Part shown: piece by piece, positions 7,854-32,634 of the stretch
How positions within the stretch are numbered: position 1 is the first letter of the stretch
Layout: every line of letters starts with the position of its first letter
DNA from: Lysobacter firmicutimachus
GTDB taxonomy: Bacteria; Pseudomonadota; Gammaproteobacteria; Xanthomonadales; Xanthomonadaceae
DNA: 64,000 nucleotides
NCBI RefSeq assembly: GCF_037027445.1
Contig: NZ_JBANDL010000002.1
Location: forward strand, 2,604,001 to 2,668,000
Direction of reading: 5' to 3'
Position numbers and translations under genes: made by a program
Notes under the pieces: model-generated
The model's database searches: none
Seen by the model: only the letters and a program-made list of their open reading frames with translations
What the model was told of the DNA's origin: nothing

Positions 7854-9518
7854 ATGCGTGCGCGAAAGCAAGGCAACGGCTTGACCGTCAGAGCGATCGC
7901 AGGAACCAACACCGTCCTGCTCGCAATGAGCATGGACGAGGCCGCCCGCAAGGGCTGCCTGGGCTTCGCGATTCAGCGCACCGATCACACCGAGGACGAA
8001 AAGTACTGGATGCGCGGCCACAAGGTCTTCGCCGACACCGGCGCGCACGTGGCCGCGGGCCAGGATGTCTCCAGTCGATCCCATCCTTTCCAGTCGTTTC
8101 AGTGGTGCGACTATACCGCCAAGCCCGAGCACGACTACAGCTATCGGGTCGTGCCGTTGTTCGGTTCGCCGGGAAATTTGGCCGAAGGCGATGGGATCGC
8201 GGTGAAAGTGAGCACCGAGCCGAACAACGACGGCCGCCACGGCGTGTACTTCAATCGCGGCGCCTGTTCGTCGCAGGCCTATGCGCGCAATTTCGAGAAC
8301 AAGCACCCCAAGGACGTGGGTCCCGCCGCCTACGATTGGCTATCGCGTGGATTGTTCGAAGGAATGGCGGCCTTCATCGCGCGCGCCAAAGACGCCTCCT
8401 ATGCGTTGCATGGCGCCATTTACGAGTTCCAGCGCCCCGAAGCGCTGAGCGCGCTCAAAGCCGCCCGCGGCCGCAAGGCCAAGGTAAAAGTCGTCTTCGA
8501 CGCCATCCCCGGCGCAAACAAACCCAAAGAAAAGAACCTGAGCGCGATCGCCTCCGCCAAGCTTGTCCGGGAATCGTCCGGAAAGACCAAGGGCACGATC
8601 ATGCACAACAAATTCCTCGTGCTCAGCCACCGGAACCAGCCCATAGCCGTGTGGACGGGCTCGACGAACTGGACCGAAAACGGCATCTACGGACATTCCA
8701 ATTGCGGCCACGTCATAGAAGGCGCCGATATCGCGCAGCACTACCTGGACTACTGGACTCAGTTGTCCGGCGACCAGGCCTCCGAGGCGAATCGCGACTG
8801 GATGGACGAAAACGCCCCCGCGCCGCCTTCGCCTTGGTCGGACAAGACAGTCGCCGTGTTCTCTCCCAGAAACGACCTGTCGGTGCTGGATTGGTACGCC
8901 GAGCTTGCCGCATCGGCCAAAGCGGCCCTGTTCATGACCTTCGCCTTCGGCATGAACCGGCGCTTCCTCGAGGTCTACGAAAAGGACGACGACGTCCTGC
9001 GTTACGCCCTGATGGAGAAAGAGGGCAACGGCGCCGGGCTCGCGCAGGGGAAAATCGATATCCGGCGCATTCGCGCCCGGCGCAACGTAATCGTTGCGGT
9101 GGCCAACAACCTTCAACTGAATGTGCTCGATCGCTGGGTGGCCGAACGTCGGGCGCTCAGCCACGAAGCCAACGTCAAATGGATCCACACCAAGTACGCC
9201 CTGATCGACCCGCTGGGCAACAACCCGGTGGTCATTACCGGATCGGCGAATTTCAGCGAAGCGTCGACCCTGTCCAACGACGAAAACATGCTGGTGATCC
9301 GCGGCGACAAGCGGGTGGCGGATATCTACCTGACCGAGTTCATGCGCTTGCACTCGCATTACGCCTTCAGGGAAGCGGTCAAGATCGCTCGCGATAACGG
9401 GGAAGACTTCGAAGCCGAACGCGCACCGTTGGCGCCCGACGACAGTTGGCAAAAGGACCACTACAAGAAGGGCCACGATCGATGGTTGCGGCGGCGCTAT
9501 TTCGCCGATGTTGATTAG
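7854..9518 (+). CDS. Phospholipase D-like protein with two HKD motifs
   Basis: A 554-residue protein with two HxK(x)4D-type motifs: HNKFLVL at about residues 251-257 followed by WTGSTNWTENG, and HTKYALID at about 445-452 followed by TGSANFSEAS. This pair forms one PLD active site that cleaves phosphodiesters through a phosphohistidine intermediate; nucleases and phospholipases share it. In the first motif the Asp position is not conserved (HNKFLVLSH), which is worth noting. The start at 7854 is preceded by AGGGGG; the long in-frame upstream stretch overlaps the methyltransferase and is not protein-like. There is no signal peptide, so a cytoplasmic or particle-delivered role fits better than secretion. 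It could be a defence nuclease or an effector, but neither is shown. Confidence 0.88.
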   Translation: MRARKQGNGLTVRAIAGTNTVLLAMSMDEAARKGCLGFAIQRTDHTEDEKYWMRGHKVFADTGAHVAAGQDVSSRSHPFQSFQWCDYTAKPEHDYSYRVVPLFGSPGNLAEGDGIAVKVSTEPNNDGRHGVYFNRGACSSQAYARNFENKHPKDVGPAAYDWLSRGLFEGMAAFIARAKDASYALHGAIYEFQRPEALSALKAARGRKAKVKVVFDAIPGANKPKEKNLSAIASAKLVRESSGKTKGTIMHNKFLVLSHRNQPIAVWTGSTNWTENGIYGHSNCGHVIEGADIAQHYLDYWTQLSGDQASEANRDWMDENAPAPPSPWSDKTVAVFSPRNDLSVLDWYAELAASAKAALFMTFAFGMNRRFLEVYEKDDDVLRYALMEKEGNGAGLAQGKIDIRRIRARRNVIVAVANNLQLNVLDRWVAERRALSHEANVKWIHTKYALIDPLGNNPVVITGSANFSEASTLSNDENMLVIRGDKRVADIYLTEFMRLHSHYAFREAVKIARDNGEDFEAERAPLAPDDSWQKDHYKKGHDRWLRRRYFADVD

Positions 9519-9689
9519 CGCGGCGCATTGGTGCCCGCTGCGGACCCGGGCAGCCTCGCCGGCCAGCCAGAGAAGCGAGCAACGGCGCGGGGGCGGGCAC
9601 GGTCATCCGACCGACTGGCGGCCCGCAAACGAGTTATCCGGTCCGGTAGAACGGAGGCATGCAAGCCGCTCGTTCCGCCTGACCGGCGC

Positions 9690-10904
9690 TCACCCCTTGA
9701 AGCCTTCCGGTACGCCGGGGACGTCATTGAGGTCCAGTTCCAGGCGCACCCCCTCGCTGGTCTGCGCTCCCACGGTGAAGGCTTCCTGGGCCACGATCTT
9801 CAGTTCGGCGACACCGTCGACGGGCGCCACGTCGTGCTCGGCCGTGGCAAACGTGGGATGGAGGTAGAAGCGCACCGGCCCGTTCAGCGGTGGACCTCCG
9901 GGCAGCGGACTCACCGTCAGTCTCACGCCGTACTTGGAACCGCCCTCGGTCAGTTGCGTCACCTCGGCCTGGAGCTGGTATCCCCCGACGACCGCTTGTC
10001 CGCCGAAGCTGCCTTTGTGCGGATCGCTGTTCCAGAGTCCCTTCCAGGACTCTTCCACACGCGCTCGGGTGTCCATGCCGACGCCCACGGCGCTTGCCGC
10101 CAGTGCGTCGGCCGACGGCCTCGCGGGACCGGCCTTGCTCAAGAACCCCACCGCTTCCTCCAGTTCCGATGCGACCATCTGCGCGCGATCCTGCGCCTGG
10201 TCGCGCTCCTGCAGGGTCTGCTCGAGCGTCTCGACCGCTTGTAGGGCCCGTTCCTGCGCCTGGTCGCGCTCCCGCTCCGCCAATTCCCTTGCGCGCTTGA
10301 GTTCGGAAATGCTGCTTTGGTTGTCTTCCAGGAAAAGGGAGAAGTCCGTGCGGGTCCAGATGTAGCACGTCAGGAACCCGACCAGCGCGCTGGCCAGGAG
10401 GATGCAGCCCGCGATAACGGCGCCGCCTTTCCATCCCCAGCCTACGGCGGCCATCCGGGAGATTTCCGAGAAACCCTCGGCCAGCTCTCGCGCCTGCACC
10501 AGGCTCACGCCGACGATGATCTTGGTCAGCCAGTCGCTGATCTGTTCGAGGTTCGTGTTGTCGGTGAAACCGGACCGGACCGCATCAGTTTTCACCGTGA
10601 GCGCTCGGGGAATGCCGAACAGAAATCCGATCAGCGCACCCGCGGCCGCGGAGGCGCTGATCGCGAAAGTGACGGAGCCGAACTTGAAGAGCAGCGTGCC
10701 GGGTTCGGCCGACATCAGCAGTGCGCCGACGATCAGGATGATCACGGAAGTCACCACCACGTTGCGGAACGCCTCGATCCGGATCGCCGGGATCTCGCCT
10801 CCGGCGGTCCTGGCGCCGTGGGTGTCCTTGGCGTTTTTCGTGCTCTCCGGGTTGCCCCGGGCAACGGCGGCTTGCGTCCCTTCGCGCTGCGGTTGAGCGT
10901 TCAT
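9690..10904 (-). CDS. Membrane protein with coiled coil and prokaryotic YEATS domain
   Basis: A 404-residue protein in three parts. Residues about 45-95 hold two transmembrane segments (VVVTSVIILIVGALLM and an Ala/Gly-rich segment ending GFLFGIPRAL), with a third near 165-190. A heptad-rich coiled coil follows (about 200-255; RARELAERERDQAQER, then ETLEQTLQERDQAQDRA). The last 130 residues form a beta-rich domain with FYLHPTF and GAFTVGAQ-like signatures typical of prokaryotic YEATS (pYEATS), here reading QEAFTVGAQTSEGVRLELDL. pYEATS domains are known from predicted signalling and conflict systems and are thought to bind modified proteins or other ligands at membranes. The start is placed at MNAQPQ because AAGGAAGG precedes it. 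Its position beside the eCIS regulator is suggestive only. Confidence 0.8.
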   Translation of the reverse strand: MNAQPQREGTQAAVARGNPESTKNAKDTHGARTAGGEIPAIRIEAFRNVVVTSVIILIVGALLMSAEPGTLLFKFGSVTFAISASAAAGALIGFLFGIPRALTVKTDAVRSGFTDNTNLEQISDWLTKIIVGVSLVQARELAEGFSEISRMAAVGWGWKGGAVIAGCILLASALVGFLTCYIWTRTDFSLFLEDNQSSISELKRARELAERERDQAQERALQAVETLEQTLQERDQAQDRAQMVASELEEAVGFLSKAGPARPSADALAASAVGVGMDTRARVEESWKGLWNSDPHKGSFGGQAVVGGYQLQAEVTQLTEGGSKYGVRLTVSPLPGGPPLNGPVRFYLHPTFATAEHDVAPVDGVAELKIVAQEAFTVGAQTSEGVRLELDLNDVPGVPEGFKG

Positions 10905-11699
10905 GGGCCTTCCTTTGTTCTTGTCCAACCCGTCACAACGGCGCCCGGCCGGGGCTGCGGCCTGCCCCGGAGCGCAAGCGCTGGGACGAGCGTCGCCCCA
11001 GCCTGGGCGGCCGACTGGGGGGCGCAGTCATCGGAACCGCTTGACCGGGACCGGCCCCTGGATGCGGGAATGCCAGTCCGCACCCAGTCCCGGGATGCCA
11101 CTGGCGTCTCATAGTGTTCAGCGAGAGGGCGCTTCATCCAAACGCCGAAGGCAGTCCCACCGGGGATGGTGCGTACTACGACCACAGCGGGGCGCCATCG
11201 CGGCACGAGGATTCGTGTCCGGTCGCCGGGCGGCCTGACGTTGCCCCGGAGTATCCAATCGAGCGCGCGACTCGCGCGGAGAGGCGCACAGCCATGGACG
11301 GTCGCGCGGCACCGCTGGGGAAAAAGCTTCCGTGGGAAGCGTCGCCGTTGAAACGGACAGGGCGCCTGGCTCATGCGGGCGTTGGAGCCCGATCCTCTCG
11401 GCGGCGCTCGCCGGTGTTCCATCGATCGGCGGCGCCGATGCCTCCTGGTCAAGGGCAACGTTTCCGCCGGGACGAGCTCGCAGACATCCGGCTTTTCCGG
11501 AACGCCACGCCGTCCGTCATCGCCTTCGCATCGCAGACGCAGGTGAACACCGACGGCGCCCCGGACGGCTAACAGGGCGGAACGTCCCGAGGAGATTGCG
11601 GTGGCCCTAACATGAAAGCCCAAGAACAGTTTCCGGCCCCCCGTTGGTTTCGTGTTCCAGCGTTTCCGGGAATAAACTCCGATCAACTGCCGCGTCAAT
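10905..11699. other. About 800 bases without a convincing gene
   Basis: The region between the pYEATS gene and the sigma-54 activator gene is open in several frames on both strands, but all translations are Arg/Ser/Pro-rich without recognisable motifs. The last 130 bases are less GC-rich and probably contain the activator's own promoter. No tRNA-like or long hairpin structure was seen. Confidence 0.5.
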
Positions 11700-11719
11700 A
11701 TTGCGTGGAGAAACGCAAT
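11700..11719 (+). promoter_or_regulatory. Inverted repeat enclosing the RBS and start codon of the activator gene
   Basis: ATTGCGT-GGAGAA-ACGCAAT is a perfect 7-base inverted repeat. The loop holds the Shine-Dalgarno sequence GGAG and the right arm ends inside the ATG at 11718. It could be an mRNA hairpin limiting translation, or a DNA operator for feedback control. Confidence 0.5.
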
Positions 11720-12746
11720 GGCTAGGGATGGTCAGTCCGCATCGCGCCAGAGCGGCTTCGCCTCAGCCATGCTGGGGCAGTCCGAGGCTTACGGACAGAT
11801 GCGCGCGCTGCTGCATCGCTATGCCGGTTGCGACGTGCAGGTGCTGATCGAGGGCGAGACGGGTACGGGCAAGGAACTCGCCGCCAGGGAAATCCACTAT
11901 CTCAGCGAACGCAGCGAACGGCCGTTCGTACCCGTGAACTGCGGCGCGCTTCCCGACAACCTCATCGAGAACGAGCTGTTCGGGCACGAGCGCGGCGCCT
12001 ATACCGACGCCCGGAGCGCGCAGCCGGGGCTGATCGAACACGCGAGCGGTGGAACCCTGTTCCTCGACGAGGTGGATTCGCTTTCCAGCAAGGCGCAAGT
12101 GACCCTGCTTCGTTTCCTTGAGAACAACGAGTACCGCCCCGTTGGCGGAGGCGCGACGCGTGTGTCGACCGCCCGCGTGCTCGCAGCCTCCAATGCCTGC
12201 CTGGAAGCGCAGGCGGCGGCCGGCCTGTTCCGGCGCGATCTGCTCTACCGGCTCAACGCGCTGTACGTGCGCCTGCCGCCCCTGAGGGAGCGCGAAGGCG
12301 ACATACCGATGCTTGCCCGACACTTCCTGCGGCAGGTGGCCCTGCGGATGGAGCGGCCGGAAAAGCGCTGGACGGAAGAGGCGCAACGGGTGCTCGACGC
12401 GCACAGCTGGCCGGGCAATGTGCGCGAGCTGGAGAACGTGGTATTACGGGCGTATCTGGGGACCGAAGGCGCGACGATAGGCGCCTCCATCCTCCACGAC
12501 TTCATCGCGCCTGCGGCCGATCTTGCGCCGGCCACGCTTGCCGGCGTGTCCATGGCCGGCGCCGACCTGCACTTTGTTTCCGCGAAACGCAACGCCATGT
12601 GCGCGTTCGAGCGATCCTTCCTGTTGGACCTGATGGCGCGAACCGCGGGCAACATCAGTGCCGCAGCGCGCCTGTCCGGCACGGAGCGGAGGCAGCTGGG
12701 CAAGTTGCTGAAGAAGCACGGCATCGAGGCGACCGCGCTCCGCTAG
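11718..12746 (+). CDS. Sigma-54-dependent transcriptional activator (bacterial enhancer-binding protein), no sensor domain
   Basis: A 342-residue AAA+ activator of RpoN promoters. Walker A is GETGTGKE (46-53), Walker B is LFLDEVD (114-120), and the arginine-finger region is FRRDLLYRLNAL. A Fis-type helix-turn-helix closes the protein (ISAAARLSGTERRQLGKLLKKHG). Only about 17 residues precede the AAA+ domain, so there is no receiver, GAF or PAS domain; activity must be set by expression level, a partner protein or a ligand on the AAA+ domain. The loop that normally reads GAFTGA and contacts sigma-54 reads GAYTDA at residues 93-98. The gene lies about 270 bases upstream of the eCIS operon, which has a sigma-54 promoter, so it is the likely dedicated switch. 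Confidence 0.92.
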   Translation: MARDGQSASRQSGFASAMLGQSEAYGQMRALLHRYAGCDVQVLIEGETGTGKELAAREIHYLSERSERPFVPVNCGALPDNLIENELFGHERGAYTDARSAQPGLIEHASGGTLFLDEVDSLSSKAQVTLLRFLENNEYRPVGGGATRVSTARVLAASNACLEAQAAAGLFRRDLLYRLNALYVRLPPLREREGDIPMLARHFLRQVALRMERPEKRWTEEAQRVLDAHSWPGNVRELENVVLRAYLGTEGATIGASILHDFIAPAADLAPATLAGVSMAGADLHFVSAKRNAMCAFERSFLLDLMARTAGNISAAARLSGTERRQLGKLLKKHGIEATALR

Positions 12747-12864
12747 CGCAGGGCCTGCTTCATCTCCCTGAGCGCCCCTCCATGTGCGACGGTTCGACCG
12801 GAGCGCCCTTCTCCGGGATCGAAGCCGGCGCCGCCCGGCACGCGATTTCTCGCCCGCCGAAGAT

Positions 12865-12914
12865 GGGTGTTGACTGACCCGCCGCGCTTGAAAACCGGGT
12901 CAAACATGACCCGG
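12865..12914. promoter_or_regulatory. Two upstream activating palindromes for the eCIS promoter
   Basis: Site 2 is the perfect palindrome CCGGGTCA-AACA-TGACCCGG (12895-12914). Site 1 (12865-12880) has the same plan, GGGTGT-TGAC-TGACCC, with one intact half. The centres are 32 bases apart, about three helical turns, and lie roughly 95 and 127 bases upstream of the predicted transcription start. This is the usual position for an enhancer-binding protein's sites. There is no T-run after site 2, so it is unlikely to be a terminator. Confidence 0.65.
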
Positions 12915-12973
12915 CCGCCTCCCGGCTCGACGCGCAACGCCCGGAATAGAGCCCTTTCTCGCTTTCTCGGCGT

Positions 12974-12989
12974 TGGTACGACATTTGCT
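12974..12989 (+). promoter_or_regulatory. Sigma-54 (-24/-12) promoter of the eCIS operon
   Basis: TGGTACG-ACAT-TTGCT matches the RpoN consensus TGGCACG-N4-TTGCW with one change (C to T). The invariant GG (12975-12976) and GC (12987-12988) are 12 bases apart, as required. Transcription should start near 13000, about 17 bases before the first eCIS ATG, leaving just room for the GGAGG ribosome-binding site at 13006-13010. A 13-base palindrome, GCTTGAATCAAGC (12987-12999), overlaps the -12 element and start site. Confidence 0.78.
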
Positions 12990-13016
12990 TGAATCAAGCT
13001 GACGCGGAGGTGACGC

Positions 13017-13289
13017 ATGGGACCTAAGGAAAGCCTGGAGCGACACGCCGGGGGTGAAGTAGAGGACGCGGTGTTGGCCTATCTGGCGCAGCATCCCGAT
13101 GCCGCCGACACGCTCGACGGCATCGTGAGCTGGTGGTTGCCGCAGCAACGCTATGAAACCCAACGCCACCGCATCGAGCAGGCCTTGAAACAACTGATCG
13201 AGCGGGGCCAGCTGCGCTGCGACCGTCTTCCCGGCGGCGCCGTGCTGTACGCGCTCAGTCGCGCCGGGCCTCCGCAACAGCCGAACTGA
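13017..13289 (+). CDS. Small winged-helix-like protein at the head of the eCIS operon
   Basis: A 90-residue cytoplasmic protein, the first gene behind the sigma-54 promoter with a strong GGAGG site. The segment VEDAVLAYLAQHPDAADTLDGI, then RHRIEQALKQLIERGQLRCDRL followed by a GAVLYALS strand, has the helix-helix-helix-wing pattern of small winged-helix DNA-binding proteins. That suggests a local regulator, for example one modulating eCIS expression, but no family could be named with certainty. It could equally be a protein-binding wing domain used in assembly. Confidence 0.65.
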   Translation: MGPKESLERHAGGEVEDAVLAYLAQHPDAADTLDGIVSWWLPQQRYETQRHRIEQALKQLIERGQLRCDRLPGGAVLYALSRAGPPQQPN

Positions 13290-13304
13290 TCGACGGACCC
13301 CGCA

Positions 13305-13448
13305 ATGGCCAAGGAGATCGCCATGCAAGCCACACCGCGCCATCCAGGCGTCCCCGTCGAGGAGACCACGGGCGGTGCGCGCGGCTTCATGAACACGGCC
13401 GCATCGTTGGTTGCCTCTGCCGTTCGTCATCGGGAGGACGGCAGATGA
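13305..13448 (+). CDS. 47-residue ORF with a sheath-like N-terminal motif
   Basis: A short open frame (47 codons from 13305; an internal ATG at 13323 has a better ribosome-binding site, AAGGAG, giving 41 residues). Its stop overlaps the start of the cap gene (ATGATG), suggesting translational coupling. The peptide contains PRHPGVPVEETTGGARGF, which resembles the N-terminal TPGVYxEE strand of contractile sheath proteins, including both sheaths encoded downstream. It may be a tiny assembly factor or just a leader that couples translation. No family is recognised. Confidence 0.45.
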   Translation: MAKEIAMQATPRHPGVPVEETTGGARGFMNTAASLVASAVRHREDGR

Positions 13449-14047
13449 TGGTCGAGGCCATGACATTGCTGCTCAAGCAGCTCAACGACTACGTCGCGCA
13501 AGCGGACGGTGGTGCGCCCGGCGCGCCGGTGCAGGCCGTCTGGGGCAACGTCGCGCAGTTGGAGCGCCCGGAGGTGGCGAGCGAGCTCGAGAACCACATC
13601 GTGCTGACTTTGGTGAACCTCGAGGAAGAGCGCACGCTCAAGAACGGCAGGTCGTTCGCGACCGTGGGCCCATCGGATATCGCGTATCGCAACCGTCCGG
13701 TTCATCTGAACCTCTTCGTGCTGTTCACGGCGAACTACCGGAACTACGGCACGGCGCTGCGCCGGCTTTCGCAGGTTCTGGCCTTCTTCCAGGGCAAGCA
13801 GAAGTTCACGTTGGCGAACTCGCCGGGCGCGCTGCCGCAGGTGCCCATCGCCGAGTTCTCGTTAACCATGGATCTGCTGTCGCCGACGTTCGAGGAGGTC
13901 AATCACCTCTGGGGGTTCCTCGGCGCCAAGCAGGTCGCTTCGGTCCTCTATCGCGGTCGCCTGGTCGCGATCTCCGACGACCGCGTGCTGGCCGGCGGCG
14001 GCCGCATCCGCGAGATCGACGTCCTGAGCCGGGATGCGACCCAATGA
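13445..14047 (+). CDS. eCIS cap/tube terminator, DUF4255 (Afp16/Pvc16-like)
   Basis: A 200-residue protein matching the DUF4255 (Pvc16 N-terminal) family. It opens with MTLLLKQLNDYV and has the conserved region VLTLVNLEEERTLKN, followed by RPVHLNLFVLFTANYRNYGTAL and LRRLSQVLAFFQGKQKF. In Afp and PVC particles this protein caps the distal end of the tube and sheath and sets particle length; length is typical. It overlaps the preceding small ORF and the next gene by four bases each, so all three are translated as a coupled unit. Placing the cap gene first differs from the Afp and PVC loci, where it is last. Confidence 0.88.
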   Translation: MMVEAMTLLLKQLNDYVAQADGGAPGAPVQAVWGNVAQLERPEVASELENHIVLTLVNLEEERTLKNGRSFATVGPSDIAYRNRPVHLNLFVLFTANYRNYGTALRRLSQVLAFFQGKQKFTLANSPGALPQVPIAEFSLTMDLLSPTFEEVNHLWGFLGAKQVASVLYRGRLVAISDDRVLAGGGRIREIDVLSRDATQ

Positions 14048-15420: not shown

Positions 15421-16902
15421 ATGGCTCTGAATCTGAGAACTCCAGGCGTGTACATCGTGGAGGAGTCGAAGTTTCCTCCGTCCGTGGTGCCGGTCGAAAC
15501 CGCGATCCCCGCGTTCTTCGGCTACACGCGCAACGCCCAGTACAAGGGCAACAACCTCCTGAACCGTCCGGTGGCGGTGAATTCGCTGCTCGAGTTCCAG
15601 GAGATCTTCGGCCTGCCCCCGGTCATCGGAGGGTTTGCCATCTCGCTGGACGAGGAGGGCCGGGTGGCCGCGCCCGCCGCCGACCCGGGGCAGGGACCGA
15701 ATGCGCGGTTTCGCCTGGGCTACGCGCTGAGGCACTTCTACGACAATGGCGGCGGCCGCTGTTACGTGGTGAGCGTAGGCACCTATGCCGCCAGCGCCGT
15801 GGTCAACGACATCGTGGACGCGCATGTGGCGGGGCTGGAGGCATTGGCGCGCGAAGACGAGCCCACGCTGATCGTCTTTCCCGACCTGAGCGGGATGCGG
15901 CCCGCGCCCGGCGCCAACCCCGCCGAGGTCGCCGCCAACCTCGCCGCCACGCGCGCCGCCTATCACTCGGTGCTGGTGCAGGCCCTGAACCAGTGCGCCA
16001 CGCTGGGGGACCGCTTCCTGATCTGCGATCTGTGGGACGGCAACCAGCCGGGCAGCGAGGGCATCGCCGCCTTCCGCAACGGCATCGGCACGAGCAACCT
16101 GAAGTACGGCGCGGCTTACCACCCGCATATCCGGACCACCATGGCCTGGAACTGGGACGAGTCCAGCATCACCGTCACGCAGGTCGCGCGCCGGAACGAC
16201 GATGGAACCGTGGACCGGCCCAGCCCGCACAACGGCATGACCCTGGCCGCGCTCAAGGGCGGCGCGCCCAATTCCAGCCCGTTGATCTACGGCAACGCGC
16301 GCAACGAGCTGGCTCGTTTCACGGTCACCTTGCCGCCCGCCGCCGCGATGGCTGGCATCTATGCCACCGTGGACCGTACGCGCGGCGTGTGGAAGTCGCC
16401 GGCCAACCAGAGCCTGGCGTCGGTGATCGATCTGAGCGTGCGCATCGATCAGGACCTCAACGACATCATGAACGTGGAGCCCAGCGGCAAGGCGATCAAC
16501 GCTTTGCGCTTGTTCAGCGGCAAGGGCTTCCTGGTCTGGGGCGCGCGTACGCTGGCCGGCAACGACAACGAATGGCGCTACGTGTCCGTGCGGCGTTTCT
16601 TCAACATGGTCGAAGAGTCGACCCGCAAGGCCACAGAGCCGTTCGTGTTCGAGCCGAACGACGCGGGCACCTGGGCCAAGGTCAAGGCGATGATCGAGAA
16701 CTTCCTGGTCATCCAGTGGCGCGAAGGCGCGCTGGCCGGCGCCAAACCGGGCGACGCGTTCTACGTGAACGTGGGCCTGGGCTCCACCATGACGGCGCAG
16801 GACATCCTCGAAGGGCGCATGAACGTCGAGATCGGCATGGCGGTGGTCAGGCCTGCCGAGTTCGTGGTGCTGCGTTTCTCGCACAAGATGCAGGAGGCCT
16901 GA
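15421..16902 (+). CDS. eCIS contractile sheath protein 1 (Afp2/Pvc2-like)
   Basis: A 493-residue phage-tail-sheath-type protein. The N-terminal arm is LRTPGVYIVEESKFPPSVVPVE and the C-terminal half contains the conserved stretch GKGFLVWGARTLAGNDNEWRYV, then SVRRFFNMVEES. These terminal arms interlock neighbouring subunits. The sheath surrounds the tube and drives it outward when it contracts. The gene sits directly before a second, longer sheath gene with three bases between them; the two proteins are clearly paralogous in the N and C termini. Confidence 0.95.
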   Translation: MALNLRTPGVYIVEESKFPPSVVPVETAIPAFFGYTRNAQYKGNNLLNRPVAVNSLLEFQEIFGLPPVIGGFAISLDEEGRVAAPAADPGQGPNARFRLGYALRHFYDNGGGRCYVVSVGTYAASAVVNDIVDAHVAGLEALAREDEPTLIVFPDLSGMRPAPGANPAEVAANLAATRAAYHSVLVQALNQCATLGDRFLICDLWDGNQPGSEGIAAFRNGIGTSNLKYGAAYHPHIRTTMAWNWDESSITVTQVARRNDDGTVDRPSPHNGMTLAALKGGAPNSSPLIYGNARNELARFTVTLPPAAAMAGIYATVDRTRGVWKSPANQSLASVIDLSVRIDQDLNDIMNVEPSGKAINALRLFSGKGFLVWGARTLAGNDNEWRYVSVRRFFNMVEESTRKATEPFVFEPNDAGTWAKVKAMIENFLVIQWREGALAGAKPGDAFYVNVGLGSTMTAQDILEGRMNVEIGMAVVRPAEFVVLRFSHKMQEA

Positions 16903-16905
16903 CCC

Positions 16906-18966
16906 ATGCCGTACAAGACACCAGGTGTACACGTGGAGGAGATCTCCACGCTGGCGCCCTCCGTCGTGGCGGTGGAAACCGCCGTGCCGGTATTCATCGG
17001 CTACAGCGAGCGCGCGCAGAGCACCGCGGGCGAGGATCTTCGCTTCGTACCCACGCGCATCCGCTCGTTGCTCGACTATCAGCAATCATATGGCGGCGAA
17101 TACACGCCCGCCGCTTATCGGGTCGTGGTGGACACCGCTGCCGGCAACCTGGTTGGCGCGGTGTCGCCGCGCAACGCGGCCGACGTCGAGCGACGCTACT
17201 ACCTGGCCACCGCCCTGCGGCATTTCTACGCCAACGGCGGAGGCCCGTGCTATGTCGTTTCCGTGGGGTCGTACGCGGATGCGCCGGCGCTCGGCAATAC
17301 CACCACGCCCGCCGGCCTGCTCGGCGGGCTGTCGCGCGTAGAGGCCGTGGACGACCCGACGCTGCTCGTGTTCCCCGACGGCGTCTCGCTCAGCGCCGCT
17401 GAGATGGGATCGCTGCAGGTTGCGGCGTTGGCCCAGTGCGAGAAGCTGCAGGACCGCTTCGTCATCATGGACCTGGTGCAGGGCGACCAGCCGGTGTCCT
17501 TGGCGCTGGACCCGGTCGGCAACTTCCGCCAGAACGTGGGCACGTCGTCCCTGCGGTACGGAGCCGCCTACTACCCCTGGGTCCGGACCATCTACCGGCC
17601 GGACGTGGACTTCCGCCAACTCAACCTGGTCACCCCGGCGCTGGCGGCCATTCCCGCGGGGACCATCAACACGCTGACTGGCGACACGACGATCGACGGC
17701 CTCGTCACCGCGACGCGCTCGGCCGATACCGCCGCGACCACCGTCGTGGGCACGGTGAACGTCTCCGCCATGGCCGGACCGAACCCGCTCACGCTCACGC
17801 GCGCGAACTTCGGACAACTCAGCCAACACTATGCCAGGCTCCTCGATCTGCTGCGGCAGACGGACGCCGCCACTGCGGCCGCCACGGTGCGCCAGCGCTT
17901 CGCCAACCTGGTGCTCCTGGTCCGTGCCGTGGCGCTGGCGCTGCGCGCACTGCAGACTGCGGCGCCGTCGCTGCCTGCATCGGTCAATCTCGCCGTGACC
18001 GACCTGAGCAACGACTCCGAGCTCGCGGCCGGCATCTCGGCGCTGATCGCCTACGAAAAGAACGCGGACGTCATGGGATCGATCTCCGGTACGCGCGGGA
18101 TCGCCGAGGTCGAGGGCGACTACGCCGCTCTGAACGGTTCGCCCTGGATCGCACCCAACGCCAATGCGGGCGCCATCGCCGCCAGTGCCGACGCGTTCGG
18201 TGGCGCCACCGTGCGGGCCACGGCGCTGAATGCGGCCTCGGCGCTGCGCGGGCTGTTCGAGCGGCCGGCCGCCGCGGTGCTTGCGATCTTCGCCAGCGTG
18301 GAGTTTCTGGCCGACGAGGCGCAGAACCGGCTGTTCGAGAGGCATCCCGTGTTCGCCAACATCCTCGAGCAGGTCAACGGCGTCATGACCCTGCAGCCGC
18401 CCTCGGGCGCGGTGGCCGGCGTCTACTCGGCCGTGGACCGCACGCGAGGCGTGTGGAAGGCGCCGGCGAACGTGTCGGTGGCCGACATCAGCGGCGTGGC
18501 GGTGAAGATCAACGACAAAGCGCAGGAGGATCTGAACGTCACCAGCACGGGCAAGAGCATCAATGCCATCCGCACCTTCACGGGCAAGGGCTCGTTGGTC
18601 TGGGGCGCCCGGACCCTGGCCGGCAACGACAACGAATGGCGCTACGTGCCCGTGCGCCGATTCTTCAACATGGCCGAGGAATCGATCAAGAAGGCCACCG
18701 AGGTCTTCGTGTTCGAGCCCAACGACCGCGGCACCTGGGTGCGGGTTCGCGCCATGGTCGAGAACTTCCTGACGGTGCAGTGGCGGCAGGGCGCGCTCGC
18801 CGGTTCGGTTCCGCAGAAGGCGTTCTTCGTGAAGATCGGATTGGGCGAGACCATGACGGCCCAGGACATCCTGGAGGGAAGGATGATCGTGGAGGTCGGC
18901 ATGGCGGTCGTCCGGCCGGCCGAATTCATCGTGCTGCGCTTCGCGCACAAGATGCAGACCTCTTAA
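16906..18966 (+). CDS. eCIS contractile sheath protein 2, with a large central insertion
   Basis: A 686-residue sheath paralogue (YKTPGVHVEEISTLAPSVVAVE at the N terminus; GKGSLVWGARTLAGNDNEWRYV near the C terminus). It is about 190 residues longer than sheath 1. The extra part lies around residues 230-460 and is Ala-rich and helical (for example RQRFANLVLLVRAVALALRAL). In related sheaths this part of the protein is exposed on the particle surface. It may form the baseplate-proximal sheath ring or decorate the outside. Both sheath genes are in frame and apparently functional. Confidence 0.93.
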   Translation: MPYKTPGVHVEEISTLAPSVVAVETAVPVFIGYSERAQSTAGEDLRFVPTRIRSLLDYQQSYGGEYTPAAYRVVVDTAAGNLVGAVSPRNAADVERRYYLATALRHFYANGGGPCYVVSVGSYADAPALGNTTTPAGLLGGLSRVEAVDDPTLLVFPDGVSLSAAEMGSLQVAALAQCEKLQDRFVIMDLVQGDQPVSLALDPVGNFRQNVGTSSLRYGAAYYPWVRTIYRPDVDFRQLNLVTPALAAIPAGTINTLTGDTTIDGLVTATRSADTAATTVVGTVNVSAMAGPNPLTLTRANFGQLSQHYARLLDLLRQTDAATAAATVRQRFANLVLLVRAVALALRALQTAAPSLPASVNLAVTDLSNDSELAAGISALIAYEKNADVMGSISGTRGIAEVEGDYAALNGSPWIAPNANAGAIAASADAFGGATVRATALNAASALRGLFERPAAAVLAIFASVEFLADEAQNRLFERHPVFANILEQVNGVMTLQPPSGAVAGVYSAVDRTRGVWKAPANVSVADISGVAVKINDKAQEDLNVTSTGKSINAIRTFTGKGSLVWGARTLAGNDNEWRYVPVRRFFNMAEESIKKATEVFVFEPNDRGTWVRVRAMVENFLTVQWRQGALAGSVPQKAFFVKIGLGETMTAQDILEGRMIVEVGMAVVRPAEFIVLRFAHKMQTS

Positions 18967-18987: not shown

Positions 18988-19419
18988 ATGGCTGAGTATC
19001 CGTTGCCGAAATTCCACTTCGAGGTGGAGTGGGGTGGCACCCGCATCGGCTTCACCGAGGTCACCGGCTTGGAAGTGACCACGGAGAAGATCGAATACCG
19101 CGATGGCGCGAGCCCGGAGTATCACAAGATCCGCATGCCCGGCATGCAGACCTTCGGCGACCTCACGCTCAAGCGCGGCATCTTCGCGAACGACAACGAG
19201 TTCTACGCCTGGTGGGACTCGGTGTCGCTCAACACTATCGAGCGCCGCGACATCACCATCAGCCTGCTCAACGAGAACCACGACCCGGTCGTGATCTGGA
19301 AGGTGAAGAACGCGTGGCCAACGAAAGTGACATCCACCGATCTGAACTCCTCGGGCAACGAGAGCGCGATCGAGACGCTGGTGCTGGCCCATGAGGGCCT
19401 GACCATGGCGAACGGCTGA
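18988..19419 (+). CDS. eCIS inner tube protein (Afp1/Pvc1-like)
   Basis: A 143-residue member of the T4 gp19-like tube family: PLPKFHFEVEWGGTRIGFTEV, then GLEVTTEKIEYRDG, and LTLKRGIFANDNEFYAWW. Hexamer rings of this protein stack to make the hollow tube that carries cargo. It has a good ribosome-binding site (AGGGAGA) 21 bases after the sheath 2 stop. Length and motifs are typical. It is the main tube subunit, as the next gene encodes a longer variant. Confidence 0.94.
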   Translation: MAEYPLPKFHFEVEWGGTRIGFTEVTGLEVTTEKIEYRDGASPEYHKIRMPGMQTFGDLTLKRGIFANDNEFYAWWDSVSLNTIERRDITISLLNENHDPVVIWKVKNAWPTKVTSTDLNSSGNESAIETLVLAHEGLTMANG

Positions 19420-19422
19420 TCC

Positions 19423-19926
19423 ATGGACCTGAGCTACCCGCATCCGGGATTCCATTTCCTGGTGGTCTTCGAGCTGCTGCCGCAGTTCCCTTACGACACG
19501 CGCTGGCAAGAGGTGTCGGGCCTCAGCGTGAGCACGGAATTCGAGAGCTGGCCCGAAGGAGGCGAGAACCGCTACGCCCACCAGTTGCCCAAGAGCCTGC
19601 AGTTCGGCGAACTGACGCTCAAGCGCGGCAAGTTCATGGGGTCCGGGGTGCTGCACTGGGCGCGCAAGGCCATGGAGCAGTTCGAGTACAAGCCCGTCAA
19701 CCTGATGATCTCGCTGCTCGACGAGGAGCATCTGCCCCTCTACAACTGGTATGTGACCGGAGCCGTTCCCAAGCGCCTGGAGATTGCGGGCATCAATGCC
19801 GGCAGCAACGAGATCCTGATCGAATCGCTGGCCCTGCAGTACCAGTATTTCAAGTACTACGACCCGGCGAGCGTGGCCCTGGATGCGGCTGCGGCGCTCT
19901 CGGGCAGCGTGGGGGTGAGCTTCTGA
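19423..19926 (+). CDS. eCIS tube-initiating protein (Afp5/Pvc5-like)
   Basis: A 167-residue gp19-like protein diverged from the main tube subunit: HPGFHFLVVFELLPQFPYDT, SGLSVSTEFESWPEGG and the shared LTLKRGKFMGSG. In Afp and PVC particles the corresponding protein makes the first tube ring on the baseplate hub. It is four bases after the main tube gene and overlaps the DUF5908 gene by one base. Confidence 0.9.
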   Translation: MDLSYPHPGFHFLVVFELLPQFPYDTRWQEVSGLSVSTEFESWPEGGENRYAHQLPKSLQFGELTLKRGKFMGSGVLHWARKAMEQFEYKPVNLMISLLDEEHLPLYNWYVTGAVPKRLEIAGINAGSNEILIESLALQYQYFKYYDPASVALDAAAALSGSVGVSF

Positions 19927-20153
19927 TGCCCATCGAGATCCGCGAACTGGTGATTCGCGCCACGGTGGATCCCGCCGCGGGCGGGGGCGGGGGCGGTGGG
20001 CCGGGAAACTGCGGTCTCCCCGCGGGCAAAGACGGCCAGGATCAGGGCGGAGCACCCGGCGCCCACGCGGATTCCGCGCCCGCCGACGGCGACCTGGTGC
20101 AGGTCTGTGTGCGCGAAGTCATGCGCATCCTCGAACGCAAGGGAGAACGCTGA
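19926..20153 (+). CDS. DUF5908 family eCIS protein (Afp6/Pvc6-like)
   Basis: A 75-residue protein that begins MPIEIRELVIRATV, the defining sequence of the DUF5908 family found between the tube and LysM genes in eCIS loci. A Gly-rich linker and a C-terminal helix (VQVCVREVMRILERKGER) follow. The family has no established function in the particle; position suggests a role in assembling the hub or tube. It shares single-base stop/start overlaps on both sides. Confidence 0.82.
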   Translation: MPIEIRELVIRATVDPAAGGGGGGGPGNCGLPAGKDGQDQGGAPGAHADSAPADGDLVQVCVREVMRILERKGER

Positions 20154-20914
20154 TGCTGTTCGAGAAAGGAAAGCTCGAGAAGCTCACGCTGCGCGCGTTC
20201 AAGCCGGCGGCCAGTCCGGAGGACAAACCCGTCCCGTCGGATAGTCCGGAAGACACGTACGTGGTCCAGGTCAATCCGGGCACGTACACGCTGAACAAGC
20301 TGATCAACTACTCGCGCCAGACGGGGCAGGGCGATACGGCGTCCGAGGCGCTCTACAACAACACGCCTCCGGCGAATCTTTCCTTCGAATTCCTGTTCGA
20401 CGGCACCGGTGTCGTGCCCGAGCCCTCGGAGCTCGGCGACATTCCATTGGTGGGCGCCATCGCCTCAGCGCTGTCCGGACCGAAGAAGTTCGTGGTCATG
20501 GACGAGATCCAGAAGTTCGACCGCCTGGTACATGCGTTCGACGGCACCATCCACCGGCCGCGCGAGTTGCTGTTGGTCTGGGGCGCGCTGGTATTCCCCT
20601 GCGTGTTGACCTCGGTGAGCTACCGCTACACCTTGTTCAAGCCGGACGGCACGCCGCTGCGCGCCATTGCCGCTTGTTCGTTCTGCGAGCACGTCCCCAG
20701 GTCGCTGGCGGAGCGCAAGAAAAACGCCACTTCGCCGGATCTGACGCATCTGCGGGACGTGCGCGAGGGCGACACTCTTCCGGCCATGGCGTACGCCATC
20801 TACGGAAAGCCCGAGCTGTATCTCGAGGTCGCCCGCGTCAACAAGCTGGTGAATTTCCGCCGCCTGCGCCCGGCCAGCCGGGTCGCTTTCCCCCCGGTGG
20901 GGGTGAAGGCATGA
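20153..20914 (+). CDS. eCIS LysM-type baseplate protein (Afp7/Pvc7-like)
   Basis: A 253-residue protein with the N-terminal contractile-injection-system domain (VQVNPGTYTLNKLINY, LSFEFLFDGTGVVPE) and a short C-terminal LysM-like segment (REGDTLPAMAYAIYGKPELYL, VNKLVNFRRLRPASRV). In the particle it joins the tube-initiating ring to the hub, like gp53/LysM proteins of phage baseplates. Its stop overlaps the hub gene start (ATGA). Confidence 0.9.
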   Translation: MLFEKGKLEKLTLRAFKPAASPEDKPVPSDSPEDTYVVQVNPGTYTLNKLINYSRQTGQGDTASEALYNNTPPANLSFEFLFDGTGVVPEPSELGDIPLVGAIASALSGPKKFVVMDEIQKFDRLVHAFDGTIHRPRELLLVWGALVFPCVLTSVSYRYTLFKPDGTPLRAIAACSFCEHVPRSLAERKKNATSPDLTHLRDVREGDTLPAMAYAIYGKPELYLEVARVNKLVNFRRLRPASRVAFPPVGVKA

Positions 20915-22679: not shown

Positions 22680-22967
22680 ATGCCGCCCGCTGCGCGCGCC
22701 AACGACATGCACGTCTGCCCCATGGTCACCGGTACGGTGCCGCACGTGGGCGGGCCGGCATTGCCCGGGGCGCCGACCGTGATGATCGGCGGCCAGCCCG
22801 CACTGCGGGTGGGCGACATGTTGACCTGCACCGGACCGCCGGACGTGGTGGTGGCCGGCAGCGGCAGCGTGATGATCGCGGGCATGCCGGCTGCGCGCCT
22901 GGGCGACAGCACCGCGCACGGCGGCAGTCTCGTCGTGGGCTGCTTCACTGTGATGATCGGAGGTTGA
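22680..22967 (+). CDS. PAAR-repeat spike tip protein (Pvc10-like)
   Basis: A 95-residue PAAR protein: it opens MPPAARANDMHVCP, then has GAPTVMIGGQPALRVGDMLTC and GMPAARLGDSTAHGG. Repeats of P-A-(A/L)-R and metal-binding Cys and His residues fold into a small cone at the end of the spike. It is a single domain with no fused toxin, so cargo must travel inside the tube or be attached otherwise. Confidence 0.93.
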   Translation: MPPAARANDMHVCPMVTGTVPHVGGPALPGAPTVMIGGQPALRVGDMLTCTGPPDVVVAGSGSVMIAGMPAARLGDSTAHGGSLVVGCFTVMIGG

Positions 22968-30700: not shown

Positions 30701-31172
30701 CTATCGCGAGTACGGCGCCGAGACGATGTATCTGCTGGAGCACCTGCTGTTGCGGCCGCTCGCGAACACGGATGCGCTCCTGTCGCTGCCGGAAGGCGAG
30801 GGACGCGAGCGCGATCCCTACAGCCACCGCTTGTCGCTGGTCTTGCCCTCGGGCTATGCACGCGACTTCGCGCTCGCGCCCGCCGATGCCGTGCGCACCC
30901 CCGTGACGCCGGACCGCTTCCGCAGTTCGGAATTCCGGCGGCACGTAGAGGGAATGATCCAGCGCTGCTGTCCTGCCCATCTGTTGATCAAGGTGTTTTG
31001 GGTGGACCGCGAATCCCCGGCGAGCGCATCGCCGGCAAGCTTCGACACGTTCGAGACCCGGTATCTCGCCTGGTTGGACACGGTGCTGGTCCCGGGCGCA
31101 CCCGCCGCAGCGGTATCCGCCGCGCGCAATGCCCTGGTGGAGGCGCTCAATGCGATCGCCAATGACGCCTAA
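27753..31172 (+). CDS. Large baseplate wedge protein (Afp12/Pvc12-like)
   Basis: A 1139-residue protein. The opening contains SWTDHNVHDPGITLLEAASYA, the H-D-P-G-I-T signature of Afp12-like baseplate proteins, and ITELGLKLQLDIADLL. The rest has the expected repeats of baseplate-wedge domains. Together with the Afp11-like protein it makes the ring that anchors fibres and sheath. Its end overlaps the tape measure gene by 11 bases. Confidence 0.9.
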   Translation: MSQTLRISAAPPDRISLDYARLREGGMQSIRALAKDSWTDHNVHDPGITLLEAASYAITELGLKLQLDIADLLRSGQAHAEAEYEPAHRVLPVGPVNARDLRALLLDHPLVSDAQIFHPGQNEVAFYEVDADPPLTFVPPPVAPVRSRTAGLYDVLVELSQRDLNSNTYPLPVLAAGDTWDIEVALPCWDDIEAAPFHRPVTLDAVVMLPDAGVFWRALPEPQSYFGRIRVDYTDLSGAPGSMQAWVLLRVVEKIAQPGLVVPAILVAARAAIETNLPGAPLSRFAIRVREAAVAVAQLADYVAGWRNLGEQAVRIGLARVQEIALNARLEVTGGIDVEALLARIFLDIDAMLSPYVRFQSLAERRVAEPDPDSIYDGPLLRRGFLDRATSGRAIPDVIYTSDILRRIMQRRGGGGDDVVTQEDVAARDIVAVTDLTLANFINNRPITSGAEDCLHLVQIARYRPRLSLAKSRITVVRNDVEVAYDTARVLSLFQAMQAQALDEAFTDAPSPVWPVVSGDVLPVDEYTPLQMDLPALFGTGDAALPDSASAERHAAVRQLQGYLLLFEQFLGDMTAQLGHINRFYSGNGEAGTTYVTRPPFDLPGAPRLLRQFPAGGNWAAFIADPDNPVAGALRQAAETRERLLDRRNRILDHRLARQGEDAAALAQEVHRWARAELDVRALPPAQQEQRVADRREAADARLLRLKSALLRETPELSAMRLQALSNPVQRDEGMLAVLAEGVGFRWMLSPDGQPRLRGAAPEVTDIMAAISGERALAFAARTSNYIGFDSGSGVFRLRLTDGAGVAAQAIAESVQTFVSLVAANAAAPALAALFAAARIEPSLSPLERKLAHHSGIRNARRRRALRPIGDFFEIFDEPAPPGFVGRRWRLRETMPAGAVLLASDVRYDDTTAAGAVALAEQSIGRVLRYGMDEWNYRAVPAGGNTFAIQLRDPTGILLAVGQGTFASAALARAGIEAAVAMLYREYGAETMYLLEHLLLRPLANTDALLSLPEGEGRERDPYSHRLSLVLPSGYARDFALAPADAVRTPVTPDRFRSSEFRRHVEGMIQRCCPAHLLIKVFWVDRESPASASPASFDTFETRYLAWLDTVLVPGAPAAAVSAARNALVEALNAIANDA

Positions 31173-32634
31173 CCGCCACCGCATCCAGCGTCAGGTCATG
31201 GAGCTCACGGTCGGCGATGCCAGAGCAGCGCCGGGCATCCAGGAGCAACTGGCCCGCGCCTGCCGCGAGCCGCTGCTCAAGGGGATGGAGCAGGTGTTCG
31301 ATGCGGTGGCCTCGGCGCACGAACTGCTGCGGCTGGACCGCGTGGAGATCGACGTGGGCCGGATCGAGGGCGCGGACTGGGCGCCGGAGTTCGAGCGGCG
31401 CCTGCTGGCCGAATTGGGGAGGCAACTGGAAGGCCGCGCCGCGGAAGCGCAGCGCCAACGCAGCGCGCAGGCAAGCGAGGAAGGCGGCGGGGAATTCGAA
31501 GCCTTCATGTTCTTCCTGCGACACGGAAGACTGCCTTGGTGGAGACGGGCGCCGGACGCGGATTGGCCGCCCCTCTTCGAAGCAGCCGATGCGCGACGCA
31601 TCGAGGCGGTGCGTTCGCTGTTCGAGGAGGAACCGCGCATCCTGCCACGCCTGATCGATGCCTTGGACGATCCCCGCCTCGAGACGCTGGTCGCCGGCGT
31701 CGGGGCGGCACGCGATTGCACCGCGGCGCTGCGCGAACTGCTCCCCGCGGACTCTCCGGCGGCGTATCAGCGCTGGCGTCAAGCGTTCTGGAGCGCAGTG
31801 CTCGGATGGTCTCTGGCGCGAGGCGACGCCGTCTCCGGCGCGGCCCTGGTCCAGTCGTTGTTGGCCGATCGCTGCAGACTGGCGATGGAGCAATCGCGGC
31901 ATCGGAGCGATGTCATGAGCGCATCCACGGGCGAGGCAAGCCCCCCCGTCATCAGGCCGGTAACGACTTCCGCCTTGCCTGCGCCCTGGCGCGAGTGGTG
32001 CGAAGCCGCGCTCCAGGACATGGGGCAGGGCGCATCGATCGCCCCCGCAGCGAGCAGGCCTGTGCCGGCGGCCCCCGGCCCGGGCGCTCCGCGGCGCGAG
32101 GCGCCGGGACGAAAAGTCGAACCCGCGATGGGGGAAGCGGTCTATCTGCCCTGCGTCGGCATCCTGCTGTTGCACCCCTTCCTCGCGGCGCTGTTCGACG
32201 ACCGCGGCTTGCTGGAACGTGGTTGCTTCGTCGACGAGGGAGCGAGGCAGCGTGGTGCGCAACTGCTGGGTCACCTCGCGACCGGGCTTGCCCGGACGCC
32301 GGAGTACGAACTGGGCTTCGCCAAGCTGCTCACCGGCATCGCGCTGGACTCGCCACTGGAAAGCCTCTGGCTCGAAGAACAGGACATCGCCGCCTGTGCC
32401 GAGCTGCTCGACGCCGTACTCGGCCATTGGACGGCGTTGCGCAGCAGTTCGGCGGCATGGCTGCGCAGCCAGTTCTTCCTGCGCGAGGGCAAGCTGGAGG
32501 CGGTGGAGGGCGGCTACCGCGTGACAGTGGAACGTCGCGCACAGGATGTGCTGCTCGCGCGACTGCCCTGGGGCTTCGGGGTGATCTCGCTGCCGTGGCT
32601 CAACGACAGGATTTTCGTGCAGTGGCTGGATTAG
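31162..32634 (+). CDS. eCIS tape measure protein (Afp14/Pvc14-like)
   Basis: A 490-residue protein matching the contractile injection system tape measure family at its N terminus (RHRIQRQVMELTVGDARAAP, LLRLDRVEIDVGRI) and C terminus (GITLLLxxPFL-type motif read here as GILLLHPFLAALFDDRG, then PWGFGVISLPWLNDRIFVQW). It should set tube length. The start MTPNRHRIQR is within the end of the previous gene; upstream residues in the same frame are not family-like. The protein is short compared with the tape measures of Afp and PVC, which suggests a shorter particle. Confidence 0.85.
   Translation: MTPNRHRIQRQVMELTVGDARAAPGIQEQLARACREPLLKGMEQVFDAVASAHELLRLDRVEIDVGRIEGADWAPEFERRLLAELGRQLEGRAAEAQRQRSAQASEEGGGEFEAFMFFLRHGRLPWWRRAPDADWPPLFEAADARRIEAVRSLFEEEPRILPRLIDALDDPRLETLVAGVGAARDCTAALRELLPADSPAAYQRWRQAFWSAVLGWSLARGDAVSGAALVQSLLADRCRLAMEQSRHRSDVMSASTGEASPPVIRPVTTSALPAPWREWCEAALQDMGQGASIAPAASRPVPAAPGPGAPRREAPGRKVEPAMGEAVYLPCVGILLLHPFLAALFDDRGLLERGCFVDEGARQRGAQLLGHLATGLARTPEYELGFAKLLTGIALDSPLESLWLEEQDIAACAELLDAVLGHWTALRSSSAAWLRSQFFLREGKLEAVEGGYRVTVERRAQDVLLARLPWGFGVISLPWLNDRIFVQWLD

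Follow-up and report, generated by a model that had tools for sequence, protein, structure and literature searches.

Introduction

Bernard et al. are said to have described in 2011 the control of T6SS by sigma-54 and an enhancer-binding protein (EBP). Sigma-54 control of T6SS is established, according to the accessible part of PMC6653060. The locus described here lies in a stretch of 64,000 nucleotides of Lysobacter firmicutimachus (the window) and resembles those systems in that an EBP gene stands beside a contractile injection cluster for which sigma-54 dependence is predicted, and in that pairs of such an EBP with a small, unnamed neighbour protein (wH) are also found beside T6SS genes (L034, L120 and L131). 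It differs from them in its injector, which is an eCIS, in an EBP that lacks an N-terminal domain, and in the wH gene that opens the operon.

A second system of similar layout is that of PspF and pspA, in which pspF is divergent from pspA and PspA is a coiled-coil protein that regulates PspF. The window shares with it paired sites upstream, near -100, an EBP devoid of an N-terminal domain, and a first operon gene encoding a regulator of the EBP, a role for which wH is a candidate. The divergent pspF and the coiled-coil PspA set that system apart, and the window EBP, with 252 and 207.9 bits, stays below the cut-offs of both PspF equivalogs of NCBIfam, which are 443.55 and 529 bits, respectively. 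The same genome also encodes RtcR, which like the window EBP adjoins an exact -24/-12 promoter. RtcR, however, controls other genes, its N-terminal part is long, and its gene and its target are divergently arranged.

To our knowledge, the trigger of eCIS production is known for few systems. The eCIS regulators named in the consulted part of Geller et al. (2021, PMC8213781) are of the GerE/LuxR type, BTAD and RfaH, which are adjacent to their loci like the window EBP but belong to different protein families. A term search found no occurrence of the word sigma in the main text of PMC8213781, and none of sigma or RpoN in the searched text of a 2023 review (PMC10598620) and a 2025 survey (PMC12210884). 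Within a literature search that set aside subscription papers and preprints, no paper contained both whole words eCIS and RpoN, and no report of sigma-54 control of an eCIS was found among the listed titles and first parts of abstracts. The literature covered in this way agrees with a remark in a preliminary description of this DNA, that no eCIS with such a complete control unit is known to have been described. Here we present a locus in which, judging by its sequence, this soil bacterium appears to turn on its injector genes through a dedicated sigma-54 switch. Similar switches, accompanied by the unnamed small protein, recur beside injectors of other bacteria and seem to pass from one injector to another as a whole.

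The particle locus

As far as its genes tell, the particle encoded in the window is an eCIS. A single locus on the + strand comprises the gene of a Pvc16_N protein, the first recognised particle gene (13445-14047), two sheath genes (15421-16902 and 16906-18966), two tube genes matching Phage_T4_gp19 (18988-19419 and 19423-19926), a CIS_tube gene (20153-20914), a PAAR protein gene (22680-22967), the gene of a CIS_TMP tape measure protein (31129-32634), a gene with an eCIS_core domain that is a candidate cargo (35180-38908, first 540 residues scanned) and, as the last gene of the co-directional run, an AAA ATPase gene (39039-40442). Both window sheaths match Phage_sheath_1C rather than the TssB/TssC type that, with Hcp, marks a T6SS; TssBC and Hcp queries gave no match in L070, the 16.9-kb stretch of the same locus covered by that search. 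At the limits used, the locus had no match that would indicate carriage by a phage or a plasmid.

Promoter and operators

The intergenic stretch that follows the EBP gene and extends to the next gene of the + strand (12747-13016) holds a -24/-12 element and two palindromes. The element, located at 12973-12989 on the + strand, reads TTGGTACGACATTTGCT, that is, TTGGTACG-ACAT-TTGCT. It contains the GG and GC dinucleotides in the context of TTGGCACG-N4-TTGCW, the sigma-54 consensus, from which it departs by one base (T for C). The near-perfect promoter claimed in the preliminary description was confirmed, and its exact form is rare: TTGGYACG-N4-TTGCW occurs three times in the 5.3-Mb genome (G000), at this site and at positions 929136 and 3672705. 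Allowing up to one mismatch, the genome contained 15 sites, while the control pattern, its reverse, had 9, so this class is hardly enriched, so that only the exact class is informative. Inside the window, the promoter alone matched TGGCACG-N4-TTGCW with no more than one mismatch, and there was no excess of matches with two (7 observed, 12.7 expected).

The exact site at 929136 has rtcR on one side (730.9 bits with the NCBIfam model RtcR, whose cut-off is 650) and an rtcB-like gene on the other; the latter matches the RtcB-family models with scores below their cut-offs. The rtcR/rtcB pair is sigma-54 controlled, and this exact -24/-12 site therefore served as a positive control for the promoter pattern. 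Reading the DNA that surrounds the third exact site (C2:3672705, L057) did not reveal its target. The genome has one rpoN gene (PF04552, 7.1e-63).

As a usual rule, sigma-54 transcription starts about 12 nt past the -12 element, which predicts a start at about 13000 for the window promoter. The distance from the end of the -12 element to the ATG at 13017 is 27 nt. The 17 bases said to precede the first eCIS message fit the predicted leader (from about 13000 to the ATG at 13017). The promoter is followed first by wH, which is no recognised particle gene.

The two palindromes were said to share the plan GGGTCA-N4-TGACCC. Both are real and their spacing of 32 bp (about three helical turns) stands, whereas the plan does not. 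The proximal one, CCGGGTCA-AACA-TGACCCGG, is perfectly symmetric over 20 bp (12895-12914) and contains an exact GGGTCA-N4-TGACCC at 12897-12912, but the distal one (GGGTGTTGACTGACCC, 12865-12880) has two mismatches to that pattern. Matches with up to three mismatches occur at chance level in the whole window (32 versus 31.4 expected), and the pattern is therefore weak evidence for the distal site. Relatives keep the outer arms only, and we replaced the plan with GGGT-N8-ACCC, to which both palindromes correspond exactly; neither is assigned to a strand. The distal operator ends 92 nt and the proximal core (12897-12912) 60 nt ahead of the -24 element.

Across G000, GGGT-N8-ACCC was not enriched (52 sites, 57 for the reversed control). 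The two window sites were, nevertheless, the only pair less than 2 kb apart among the 50 of 52 sites listed, and by an arithmetic estimate the chance of finding two in a 270-bp gap at the genome density is about 3e-6. Comparing the positions of the 14 other promoter sites with up to one mismatch with those same 50 of 52 sites revealed no nearby GGGT-N8-ACCC, which supports, within this genome, the view that the control is dedicated.

The first gene of the operon

The wH gene (13017-13289, + strand) encodes a protein of 90 aa of an unnamed, winged-helix-like family, with no match in Pfam or NCBIfam at E 0.001. An alignment of 15 relatives retrieved 406 related proteins, and in an alignment of 59 sequences the residues D31, T32, G35, I36 and W39 were invariant. 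The predicted structure, of moderate confidence (pLDDT 71.6), consists of two helical stretches and, after them, a wing of two strands. Many winged helices appear among the weak sequence and structure matches of wH, and a Foldseek search with the model gave no match at E <= 0.001.

We gathered 63 genome loci solely through wH. In 46 of them, an EBP gene precedes wH by no more than 1 kb and in the same orientation; it was divergent in 4 and elsewhere in 3; it was not seen in the fetched DNA of the other 10, 3 of which had less than 1 kb upstream. Genes of eCIS-type sheath, tube or Pvc16 lay near wH in 39 loci and T6SS genes in 2, while 22 loci had neither, 6 of these with less than 3 kb downstream. 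The genes scanned downstream at these 22 loci included those of a Tad pilus (L113), polysaccharide chain length (L096), DUF2589 with an amidase (L102) and outer-membrane proteins (L127). In the sequences compared, the more constant association is thus that of EBP with wH, rather than that of wH with a particle. These EBP-wH pairs ahead of Tad-pilus, polysaccharide and other genes make it less likely that wH is a component of the particle; wH is more likely a regulatory partner of the EBP.

Nearly identical EBPs and wH genes were found in L113, L114 and L115, which come from MAGs named NC10 and Nitrospirae. These names likely reflect mis-binning or misnaming; since L113 and L115 carry near-identical EBPs under different phylum names, binning errors have to be allowed for.

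The enhancer-binding protein

The EBP gene claimed to lie directly upstream was found at 11718-12746 on the + strand. Its product of 342 aa has a Sigma54_activat AAA+ domain with Walker A (PF00158, 1.8e-57), AAA_lid_14 and a C-terminal Fis-type HTH (HTH_8), and is too short to include an N-terminal regulatory domain. In the identical EBP of L070 no more than 45 aa separate the first possible start from Walker A. Lengths counted from the first possible start are upper bounds, and by this count more than 120 residues precede Walker A in 22 of the 49 EBPs measured, often in remote lineages such as Nitrospirota, Acidobacteriota and Planctomycetota, with L085 and L086 as the Lysobacterales among the 22. 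Six of 10 long N-terminal pieces weakly matched the receiver domain PF00072 (E 0.001-0.12), all below its cut-off. FleQ structures were among the best PDB sequence matches; a FleQ-like control by c-di-GMP was considered and not kept. In a phylogenetic tree with a small outgroup, the wH-linked EBPs fell on one side of a branch (93/88) and the six other EBPs of G000, together with L039, on the other, and the window EBP was placed inside the Rhodanobacteraceae.

In the alignment, the L1 loop of the window EBP reads GAYTDA, so that the second Gly of GAFTGA is missing. GAFTDA or GAYTDA was found in 31 of 53 EBPs at wH loci (one too short to read), and the six other EBPs of G000 have G at the position of the D. 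TyrR is an EBP relative that acts as a repressor or as a sigma-70 activator, and the altered loop would suit an EBP working in a similar manner without sigma-54, with the -24/-12 match being incidental. We consider this highly improbable, because the loop Thr is kept, GAFTDA and GAYTDA are among the loop variants listed as compatible with activation in the accessible part of a Desulfovibrio survey (PMC4641369), the -24/-12 element recurs beside these EBPs in many lineages, and no sigma-70-like site was found on the + strand.

We then compared the recognition helix of the EBP with the palindromes present at each locus. Among EBPs of the HTH class LGKLL, GGGT-N8-ACCC was found in 20 of 24 loci and GGACA-N4-TGTCC in none, whereas in the class AFx (23 rows, including the truncated L118) GGACA-N4-TGTCC was present in 10 of 23 with up to one mismatch (5 exact) and GGGT-N8-ACCC in 3; the classes are clades that were named after a first look at the data, and their rows are related and so represent few independent events. 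Six further rows of other HTH types were left out of the Fisher tables for these classes (GGGT-N8-ACCC in 1 of 6, GGACA-N4-TGTCC in none). Of 1925 background windows, 9 contained GGGT-N8-ACCC and 26 contained GGACA-N4-TGTCC with up to one mismatch. By these counts, the recognition-helix class tracks the operator sequence, though wH shares that phylogeny. GGACA-N4-TGTCC is a probable operator of the other EBP class. This palindrome is common to the DNA upstream of wH in L091, L108, L109, L117, L124, L127 and L132, from distant phyla and Rhizobacter.

The shared phylogeny bears on whether wH, and not the EBP, binds the palindromes, as a winged-helix repressor of its own operon, with the EBP acting from another place or independently of these sites. 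The winged-helix-like look of wH and its place as first gene would agree with this, as would the genome G046, in which wH is the linked partner of operator and promoter at the eCIS (L107, L194) and the EBP relative lies on another contig. Yet the fold match of wH is not significant, the operator sequence follows the class of the EBP recognition helix, and a phased pair of sites upstream of -24 is poor for simple repression and typical of activator sites. We regard binding by wH as unlikely and favour the EBP as the protein that would bind the palindromes; the arrangement in G046 suggests that there it may act in trans.

Recurrence among relatives

To the window we added 16 regions taken from the top of the list of EBP matches, giving 17 loci. 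Promoters were scored on a scale of 25 points, our own weighting of the consensus with C or T permitted at the fifth base, which was fixed after the window had been seen but before the relatives were. Scores of 23-25 were obtained behind the EBP gene in 14 of the 17 loci, the same 14 that had eCIS-type sheath genes in the DNA fetched. L027, L034 and L039 scored 17-20 and showed no eCIS-type sheath genes in the fetched stretch, although L034 has T6SS sheath and tube genes. In L034, the TssB and TssC models match one 796-aa frame (9244-11634), in a T6SS locus adjoining the EBP-wH pair. The conservation check proposed for GGGTCA-N4-TGACCC failed for the pattern as written, but an exact GGGT-N8-ACCC between EBP gene and promoter recurred in 10 of the 17 loci (window, L024-L026 and L028-L033), with none in L027 and L034-L039. 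The single sites of L024-L026, 118-119 nt away, and of L029-L031, one in each, count against the proposed control unit.

Taking a score of at least 22 as a strong -24/-12 element, 43 of the 63 wH loci qualified, versus 25 of 1924 windows of the same length taken from these loci and 12 of 1260 shuffles; 20 of the 63 scored lower, which counts against the proposed switch. The proportion was 31 of 39 in loci with eCIS-type genes and 12 of 24 in the others. In 24 of the 63 loci an exact GGGT-N8-ACCC lay no more than 150 nt from the highest-scoring promoter match; in 39 it was missing, which again counts against the switch. Sites ended 60-63 nt upstream in 16 loci, L070 included, and 92-96 nt upstream in 10, including L070 with the distal sequence of the window. 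There were 12 operator pairs, 10 of them with a pitch of 32-34 bp. Against this regularity stand the pairs of L118 (70 bp) and L122 (56 bp) and sites at other distances in L085, L118, L121 and L122; in L084 and L074 the pair is displaced by about 11 and 22 bp, that is, by whole helical turns.

In a sample of the order, wH had a match in 33 of 299 genomes (37 matches). Considering the best 30 of the 37, window included, 21 scored at least 22 versus 0 of 90 control windows, and an EBP gene lay within 1.5 kb upstream in 20 and was not found there in 10. A different layout, which counts against the unit, was observed in L197, L203 and L205, where EBP and wH adjoin with no promoter match of 20 or more between them. 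Overall, the parts that the preliminary description assembled (promoter, operators, adjacent EBP and rpoN) are all present, and promoter, operator and EBP recur jointly at injector loci.

A general rule for eCIS was rejected. CIS_tube was found in 16 of 398 genomes of the phylum, with scores under the curated cut-off in 2 of these, and in the 15 testable ones (G339, ending at a contig end, was left out) wH lay inside the stretch fetched around the particle genes only in G000, the window, and G046 (2 of 15, or 1 of 14 without the window). An EBP profile (E 1e-30) had no match in 21 stretches around eCIS genes, that of G046 included. CIS_TMP was found in 6 of 200 genomes of the order, with wH by the eCIS in G000, G046 and G175, in the last just past the fetched eCIS stretch; no wH lay within about 4.5-5 kb of the eCIS of G106 and G117, and the stretch fetched from G150 ended inside a sheath gene. 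With wH by the particle in 2 of 15 genomes, the EBP-wH unit would be one mode among several of controlling these loci.

Mosaic origin of the locus

Alignment with blastn showed that window positions 11766-12758 and 12875-13365 have 81% and 74% DNA identity, respectively, to Dyella sp. SG609 (L071). The second block takes in about 60 bp of the sheath gene located behind wH in L071, and the piece between the two blocks, with the distal operator, did not align to L071. From 13433 on, the window has 82-85% identity to the eCIS loci L032, L033, L101 (Lysobacter sp. ISL-50) and L107. Protein identities to L071 are 82% for the EBP, 75% for wH and about 40% for the sheath matches, while those to L101 are 87-93% for six particle proteins, 48% for the EBP and 36% for wH. 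By these comparisons, the control unit of the window is Dyella-like and is joined to a Lysobacter-type particle at 13366-13432. A 47-aa ORF at the joint (13305-13448, + strand), whose stop overlaps the start of the Pvc16 gene (ATGA), is a relic that descends from the first part of a Dyella-type sheath gene. By eye, Rhodanobacter OK091 (L073) has a similar sheath-like start behind wH. The pattern is best explained by transfer of the control unit, in one piece, from a Dyella-type injector, a direction that we infer. Neither the mosaic nature of the locus nor that of wH figured in the preliminary description.

At a junction where two histories meet, the particle genes might use a promoter of their own and leave the sigma-54 promoter to drive wH and the relic ORF only, and promoters outside the sigma-70 consensus would be invisible to our scan. 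This seems improbable. No sigma-70-like site was found on the + strand, nor any terminator-like site on it between 13017 and 23674; such sites are at chance level and fall on that strand at 23674, 32458 and 41123, the last behind the locus. Moreover, the relatives with the same particle, L101 and L107, likewise carry wH and a -24/-12 element ahead of Pvc16, and the overlap of the relic ORF with the Pvc16 start suggests coupling. We therefore retain a single operon under the sigma-54 promoter. The claim that one protein switches the whole 27-kb locus is consistent with the single direction of all assigned genes from 13017 to 40442 and with the want of sigma-70-like sites on the + strand, and goes no further than consistency.

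Discussion

We propose, with a probability of roughly 0.85, that the eCIS of the window is a single operon governed by a sigma-54 switch. The EBP would bind both GGGT-N8-ACCC operators on the same face of the helix, contact the RNA polymerase-sigma54 complex held closed at 12973-12989 and, by hydrolysing ATP, open the promoter of the operon, with wH transcribed first and the eCIS genes after it. As a sensory domain is missing from the N-terminus of the EBP, control of its activity most likely comes in trans. The best candidate for a partner would be wH, which usually comes first after the promoter and would probably act as a feedback inhibitor or co-regulator following a logic like that of PspF and PspA. 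In the window, this Dyella-type control unit would now stand ahead of a particle of another lineage.

A broader proposal, which we offer tentatively and as one whole, is that EBP and wH together make up a two-gene switch, mobile and open to swapping, found under eight or nine phylum names, and that wH, as an EBP partner of a new class, reports or limits the production of injection machines. The ancestral EBPs would have carried a degenerate receiver-like domain that was lost in Lysobacterales, leaving wH as the main control input, and the window would be a natural promoter swap with a relic of the donor sheath gene at the joint.

Sigma-54 promoters provide tight, default-off control, which is suited to such large particles. 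The comparison yields a testable control unit in Lysobacter and Dyella, made up of operators, promoter, activator and candidate partner, and a second candidate operator code for the distant EBP class. Finally, wH may serve as a marker gene for finding such switches without knowing their cargo.
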